A stretch of 64,000 bases of DNA from Anaerococcus sp. Marseille-Q5996 (GTDB lineage: Bacteria > Bacillota > Clostridia > Tissierellales > Peptoniphilaceae): positions 62,001-126,000 of the forward strand of contig NZ_CAMPPE010000004.1 of the NCBI RefSeq assembly GCF_946893725.1, given 5' to 3'. The position numbers and the translations under genes were made by a program. Below, piece after piece: positions 43,520 to 44,032 of this stretch; position 1 is the first letter of the stretch; each line of letters opens with the position of its first letter. The notes beneath the pieces were generated by a model. The model was not told the origin of the DNA. It saw only the letters and a list, made by a program, of their open reading frames with translations, and ran no database searches.

Positions 43520-43689
43520 TACAAAATTTTAAAGAGAAATAGATACAATTAAAATTGAATTAATTAGAAAGACTTCAAGCCAACAATCCTAATCTTCTCA
43601 AAGCCAGTGCTAGCAACAATAAATCCTTATATTAAATAAAAAGTATAAAAATAAGTAAAAAAATAAGGACTTTATAGTCCTTTATTACA

Positions 43690-43749
43690 TGGTCGGGGTG
43701 AAAGGATTCGAAGCATCGAGCCTCATCTTCTCAAAGCCAGTGCTAGCAA
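43690..43749 (-). pseudogene. tRNA-Pro remnant, copy B
   Basis: Matches the intact tRNA-Pro over its CCA end and acceptor 3' strand, but the T-arm is altered (GAAGCATCGA where the gene has GAACCTTCGA) and the anticodon stem no longer pairs. The 5' half is absent. It has no promoter. Confidence 0.75.
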
Positions 43750-43821
43750 AATTTAACTATTATATTAAATAAAAATATAAAAATAAGTAAAAAAATAAGG
43801 ACTTTATAGTCCTTTATTACA

Positions 43822-43881
43822 TGGTCGGGGTGAAAGGATTCGAACCTTTGAGCCTCATCTTCTCAAAGCCAGTGTTGCCAA
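43822..43881 (-). pseudogene. tRNA-Pro remnant, copy C
   Basis: Keeps the CCA end, acceptor 3' strand and an intact T-arm, but the anticodon region is degenerate (loop TTTGAGA instead of TTTGGGA) and the D-arm and acceptor 5' strand are missing. It has no promoter of its own. Confidence 0.75.
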
Positions 43882-43921
43882 CAATAAATCCTTATATTAA
43901 ATAAAAAATATAAAAATAAGT

Positions 43922-43948
43922 AAAAAAAATAAGGACTTTATAGTCCTT
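43922..43948 (-). terminator. Terminator of tRNA-Pro
   Basis: On the minus strand the stem AAGGACT/AGTCCTT (43942-43948 with 43931-43937) is followed by ATTTTTTTT. It begins 8 bases after the tRNA CCA end. The same element is repeated in each tandem unit downstream. Confidence 0.85.
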
Positions 43949-43955
43949 TATTACA

Positions 43956-44032
43956 TGGTCGGGGTGAAAGGATTCGAACCTTCGACCTCATGTTCCCAAA
44001 ACACGCGCGCTACCAAGCTGCGCCACACCCCG
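43956..44032 (-). tRNA. tRNA-Pro (anticodon TGG)
   Basis: A 77-nt cloverleaf with encoded CCA. The acceptor stem is CGGGGTG/CACCCCG, the D-stem GCGC/GCGC, and the anticodon stem CGTGT/ACATG with loop TTTGGGA giving anticodon TGG. The T-arm GAAGG/CCTTT encloses TTCGAAT. The discriminator base is A. Confidence 0.97.

Follow-up and report, generated by a model that had tools for sequence, protein, structure and literature searches.

A tandem array of half-tRNA repeats behind tRNA-Pro in Anaerococcus, resembling tRNA-linked repeats in layout

Directly behind a tRNA-Pro(TGG) gene of Anaerococcus lies a tandem array of half-tRNA copies that share a 21-nt core foreign to the tRNA and conserved between species. 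Our best reading of this array, to which we assign a probability of about 0.5 from sequence comparison, is that an old tandem duplication has been vertically inherited as an array of tRNA-linked repeats.

The array and its distribution in the genus

The window, by which we mean the whole stretch of 64,000 nucleotides analyzed here, belongs to genome G000, with the array on contig C4. Its single intact tRNA gene is a tRNA-Pro with anticodon TGG and an encoded CCA end (43956..44032, minus strand), found by ARAGORN and Rfam (RF00005, 64.5 bits), which is the parent of the array. Promoter scoring places TTGACA/TATACT upstream of this gene (z 4.6), and an intrinsic terminator hairpin, AAGGACT ATAA AGTCCTT followed by a U-run, lies directly 3' of it (43931..43948, minus strand, -8.1 kcal/mol). 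The first-pass annotation had claimed tandem copies of the tRNA 3' half at this locus, and the array is real: the top tandem repeat of the window in Tandem Repeats Finder spans 43588-44000 (period 132, 3.1 copies, 90% matches, score 687), and a repeat search gives unit spacings of 132-134 bp, with two full units and one truncated unit downstream of the tRNA, i.e., toward lower coordinates.

Read on the tRNA strand, each unit runs from a D-loop-like TTGG... through the core, T-arm, acceptor 3' strand, and CCA to a terminator and an AT-rich spacer. The T-arm, CCA end, and terminator had thus been described correctly, but the copies begin at the D-loop and have a strongly altered anticodon-arm region. 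Half copy 1 (43822..43884, minus strand), comprising the D-loop part, core, T-arm, acceptor 3' strand, and CCA, is well preserved, with its T-arm and CCA intact; its core, GGCTTTGAGAAGATGAGGCTC, at 43850..43870 (minus strand; exact 18-mer at G000:C4:105853-105870), is not in the tRNA. Half copy 2 (43690..43752, minus strand) has an altered T-arm (GATGCTTCGAATCC) and retains CCA, with its core at 43718..43738 (minus strand; G000:C4:105721-105738). The last 20 nt of tRNA-Pro recur exactly in both halves, and, as behind the tRNA, each is followed by a hairpin and U-run (43797..43814 and 43665..43682, both minus strand). A third copy (about 43567..43619, minus strand) is truncated, its T-arm and CCA gone, and keeps the core with one mismatch (43588-43605, minus strand; G000:C4:105588-105605). 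The proposal of tandem duplication is supported, since spacers and terminators are alike within a genome and resemble the tRNA-proximal ones, and the outer copies of the window are more decayed. A genome-wide search for the unit elsewhere in G000 found the array at this one place.

Searching the genus, we found the array behind the same tRNA-Pro in 16 of 31 Anaerococcus genomes, and a broken remnant copy in one more (G010). All carriers fall in one clade of an rpoB tree built from 30 of the 31 genomes; this clade of 21 comprises the 16 genomes with the array, the one with the remnant, and 4 without, and the array is found in none of its sister clade of nine. Every array is on the same strand as tRNA-Pro and behind it, with one to five half copies per locus, even in G022, where a triple prophage now lies between the two. 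The simplest reading of this distribution is one old gain followed by several losses, and G011 has a clean empty site with only the tRNA and its terminator. The array is dispensable, given that four or five members of the carrier clade lack it.

A second locus, tRNA-Pro(CGG), has half copies in G024 and G026, with a CGG-type T-loop and a C in the core, showing that these copies follow their own parent. Their 70-bp units sit before the terminator and so would be co-transcribed in the tRNA precursor. A deletion between two CGGGG runs appears to have removed much of the tRNA-Pro(CGG) gene of G026 itself (G026:C10, L039:5518-5565) and destroyed it; the acceptor start and the 3' half remain, followed by one half copy. 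Other rearrangements were seen near these loci. In G007, an element whose gene resembles, by inspection, an IS110-family transposase is inserted at a terminator between two array units (L041:5651-7332). REP-like repeats (GTCATATTGAGCG...AGGATGACAG) cluster just 3' of tRNA-Pro loci in G024 and G015 (L005, L037, L038), and one of them truncates a half-copy core in G015. When the 94 tRNA genes of G000 and G009 were tested for similar duplication, only two degenerate tails besides those of tRNA-Pro appeared, both in G009 (L185, L191): tRNA-Asp(gtc) is followed by degenerate tandem tails, tRNA-Gln(ctg) by an almost complete pseudo-tRNA with a changed yet paired T-stem.

Conservation of the core and transcription of the half copies

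The core, GGCTTTGAGAAGRTGAGGCTC, occupies the anticodon-arm position of the half copies and is absent from the intact tRNA-Pro, which carries GTGTTTTGGGAACATGAGGTC there. Between species, mean identity is highest in this segment (0.934), followed by the acceptor strand (0.813), the T-arm (0.758), and the D-like part (0.535). Spacers are 0.51-0.77 identical within a genome and 0.36-0.37 between species, a value we take as close to background for AT-rich DNA. With up to one mismatch, the 18-mer core is nearly confined to tRNA-Pro loci in the genus, the sole exception being a single-mismatch match elsewhere in G007. Although the T-arm part decays, the conservation of the core and its near confinement to these loci indicate that the copies are not plain decaying debris; they look like a kept repeat family. 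The label "decayed" given to them earlier therefore fits the T-arm and not the unit as a whole, because the anticodon-arm region is its most conserved part between species.

A family-wide search for the core returned two matches outside the genus, neither in a tRNA context, and an exact 18-mer scan of viral contigs returned four, none in a tRNA-Pro context. The genome-wide 21-mer scan found 16 stretches, 8 of them in Anaerococcus; the other 8 are single matches in scattered lineages and were put down to chance, judged by taxonomy alone. No complementary target with up to three mismatches was common to six genomes outside the arrays. By inspection, we rejected the core as a Shine-Dalgarno mimic or tRNA minihelix, since its R position and the T-arm changes break the pairing, and as part of a peptide, since unit lengths are not all multiples of three and no start codon was seen.

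Whole units have fold z-scores from -0.35 to -3.4, and RNAalifold predicts just one weak stem, free of covariation. None of three candidate folds has covariation above shuffles: neither a rod of the core with the T-arm/acceptor strand, which reaches its best pairing, 87%, at slide 0, nor a T-arm fold, nor a hairpin of the imperfect inverted repeat CTTTGAG...CTCRAAG.

In a strict test against dinucleotide shuffles, 21 of the 36 distinct half copies have an intrinsic terminator behind them, compared to 0.36 expected; those that fail are in many cases end copies or have imperfect stems. Moreover, the stems of different units of one genome differ and yet pair (G012, G017, G025, and G030), suggesting that the terminators were kept rather than just recently copied. 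Promoters of the intact tRNA genes score z 3.6-5.2, and the DNA preceding 34 half copies from 15 genomes scores the same as shuffles (mean z -0.09), in agreement with the first-pass remark that the units lack a promoter; we rejected a promoter for each half copy on these scores. If the half copies are transcribed, this is probably by read-through from the tRNA, and read-through of the terminators probably turns them into short RNAs. Counting against this transcription model, nearly all halves of one subclade (G001, G006, and G009; L045, L046, and L040) have a second hairpin and U-run immediately before them, with a TATACA box ahead of it in most units; this extra hairpin would cut read-through further. 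The absence of covariation, the failure to find a complementary target outside the arrays, and the dispensability of the array also weigh against the favored reading.

A history consistent with these observations can be proposed. In the ancestor of one Anaerococcus clade, the segment of tRNA-Pro from the D-loop to past the terminator would have been duplicated in tandem, as the structure of the units suggests. The copies then appear to have expanded, contracted, and homogenized, presumably by unequal crossing-over, so that spacers are alike within a genome and not between species. Selection may have kept most terminators and the 21-nt core that replaced the anticodon arm, both of which are conserved. 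Read-through of the tRNA terminator would transcribe the half copies one after another, and each would be released by the next terminator as an RNA of about 90-100 nt with a tRNA-like tail, in which the core may be the active part, as a pairing or protein-binding segment. We tentatively consider it possible, though somewhat short of an even chance, that the half-tRNAs form a multi-copy tandem family of small RNAs made by read-through, whose dose would follow tRNA-Pro transcription and whose active part would be the 21-nt core, derived from the former anticodon arm.

Upkeep without function explains part of the same evidence. On this account, a functionless tandem duplication is regenerated by unequal crossing-over and by gene conversion from the tRNA, and the core is an early-fixed accident. 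The homogeneity of spacers within genomes fits this, conversion from the intact gene could renew the tRNA-like 3' part, the clean loss in G011 is in line with it, and the degenerate tails behind tRNA-Asp and tRNA-Gln in G009 indicate that such duplications happen. However, conversion cannot maintain a core that the intact tRNA does not have, yet this is the most conserved part clade-wide, and it persists even in last copies without a CCA end (G007 and G014). We therefore regard an array upheld without function as rather unlikely, while still the most serious competitor.

Phage integration at tRNA-Pro and other readings of the array

The locus in relatives does host mobile elements ending at the tRNA 3' end, as the first-pass annotation had supposed. 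In G022, three identical integrase genes lie 62,841 bp apart between tRNA-Pro and the array, marking three identical 62.8-kb tandem prophages at tRNA-Pro(TGG), and the array is displaced to their far side and still present. This triple prophage (G022:C1, about 140,700-329,200; L033, L034, L149, and L150) is either a genuine polylysogen in tandem or an artifact of assembly. The 16-bp tRNA tail CCTTTCACCCCGACCA is found at attL, at attR, and at both inner junctions. In G008, half copy 1 is immediately followed by DNA with 70% identity to the left arm of the G022 phage, which suggests that this half copy probably once served as attB.

These phages raise the possibility that the half copies are spare attachment sites, extra attB sequences at which phages insert instead of in the tRNA gene. 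All well-kept copies contain the 16-bp tail used by the G022 phage, and the phage-arm-like DNA of G008 begins right behind a half copy. However, the most conserved part of the unit, the core, is well upstream of the crossover region, the G022 phage occupies the intact tRNA though an array lies beside it, and integration restores the tRNA anyway, making the benefit doubtful. As an explanation of the array, protection of the tRNA is thus unlikely.

Still less probable is that a host protein binds the core as DNA and that the tRNA tail is incidental. In favor, the conservation of the core appears linear rather than structural, and an imperfect inverted repeat is present; this reading leaves the terminators behind each copy unexplained, however, and the core is nearly exclusive to DNA behind tRNA-Pro genes.

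Least probable of all is the origin first suggested for the array, in which each unit is an attachment-site remnant, the scar of one integration and imprecise excision: a phage group does integrate here, in three tandem copies in G022, but phage-host junctions have only the 16-bp tRNA tail beside phage arm DNA, whereas the units have about 60 bp of tRNA-derived sequence, the arm motif TGTAGTTA occurs in none of 15 arrays and three times in the G022 phage arms, the units are too short for an integrase gene, and their spacers derive from the terminator region of the tRNA itself. To judge from these sequences, the units do not look like attR sites. Moreover, neither integration scars nor simple decay predicts a clade-wide conserved core foreign to the tRNA. 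Integration occurs at tRNA-Pro, but none of our observations points to it as the origin of the array.

Relation to known tRNA-linked repeats

The closest parallel to an inherited array of this kind is found in E. coli, where 22 tRNA-linked repeat (TLR) units occur at ten loci, the 3' 18-19 bp of each unit being identical to the end of the tRNA or rRNA gene that precedes it (PMC8144298). They include the 178-bp repeats of tyrT with the rtT RNA as well as rrA, rrB, and rrF, which are transcribed by read-through and lie between two terminators, a precedent for the transcription proposed in Anaerococcus; known since 1978, TLRs long had no known function (PMC8144298). In both systems, one to several units (one to five per locus) sit directly 3' of a stable-RNA gene (in Anaerococcus on the same strand), repeat the 3' end of this gene, though some Anaerococcus end copies lost it, are separated by terminators (in E. 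coli, for rrA/rrB/rrF), and show conservation across a group of bacteria. The units are also similar in length, about 110-160 bp in Anaerococcus and 150-178 bp in E. coli. However, the phylum is a different one, the tRNA-like part is about 45-60 nt compared to 18-19 in TLRs, and the Anaerococcus units, characterized here from sequence alone, have the new 21-nt core. At gathering level, no Rfam RNA family besides tRNA matched, and matches up to E<=5 were sub-threshold and unrelated; thus, homology to the E. coli TLR/rtT sequence was not encountered. We file the Anaerococcus array as TLR-like by layout and not as a member by descent.

Other known arrangements resemble the array in single features. 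Like the putative RNAs of Anaerococcus, 3'ETS-leuZ of E. coli is a small RNA from a tRNA precursor (PMC8144298), made from sequence 3' of the tRNA in the same transcript, but it is a single external spacer with a known target, has no half-tRNA copies, and is not a repeat array. The attL/attR sites of tyrosine-integrase elements likewise duplicate the tRNA 3' end, so that an extra copy follows an intact tRNA, and a phage of relatives uses this same tRNA; in contrast, the window has no element between copies, the tRNA-like part is longer, the spacing is fairly uniform at 110-160 bp, and neither the tRNA nor any phage att sequence seen contains the conserved core. Truncated copies adjoining their parent are also typical of tRNA pseudogenes formed by tandem duplication, except that conservation between species in the array peaks in the very segment that departs furthest from the tRNA. 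Within an incomplete coverage of the literature, "tRNA-linked repeat" led only to E. coli work and one editorial, and no paper joined Anaerococcus, tRNA-Pro, and integrase; because of this coverage, the novelty of the array is provisional.

That a TLR-like array exists in a phylum unrelated to that of E. coli, with a core better conserved than the parts taken from the tRNA, suggests that such repeats can gain and keep a sequence of their own behind tRNA genes. Natural losses in sister species, such as G011 next to G000 and G023, make the function of the array testable.
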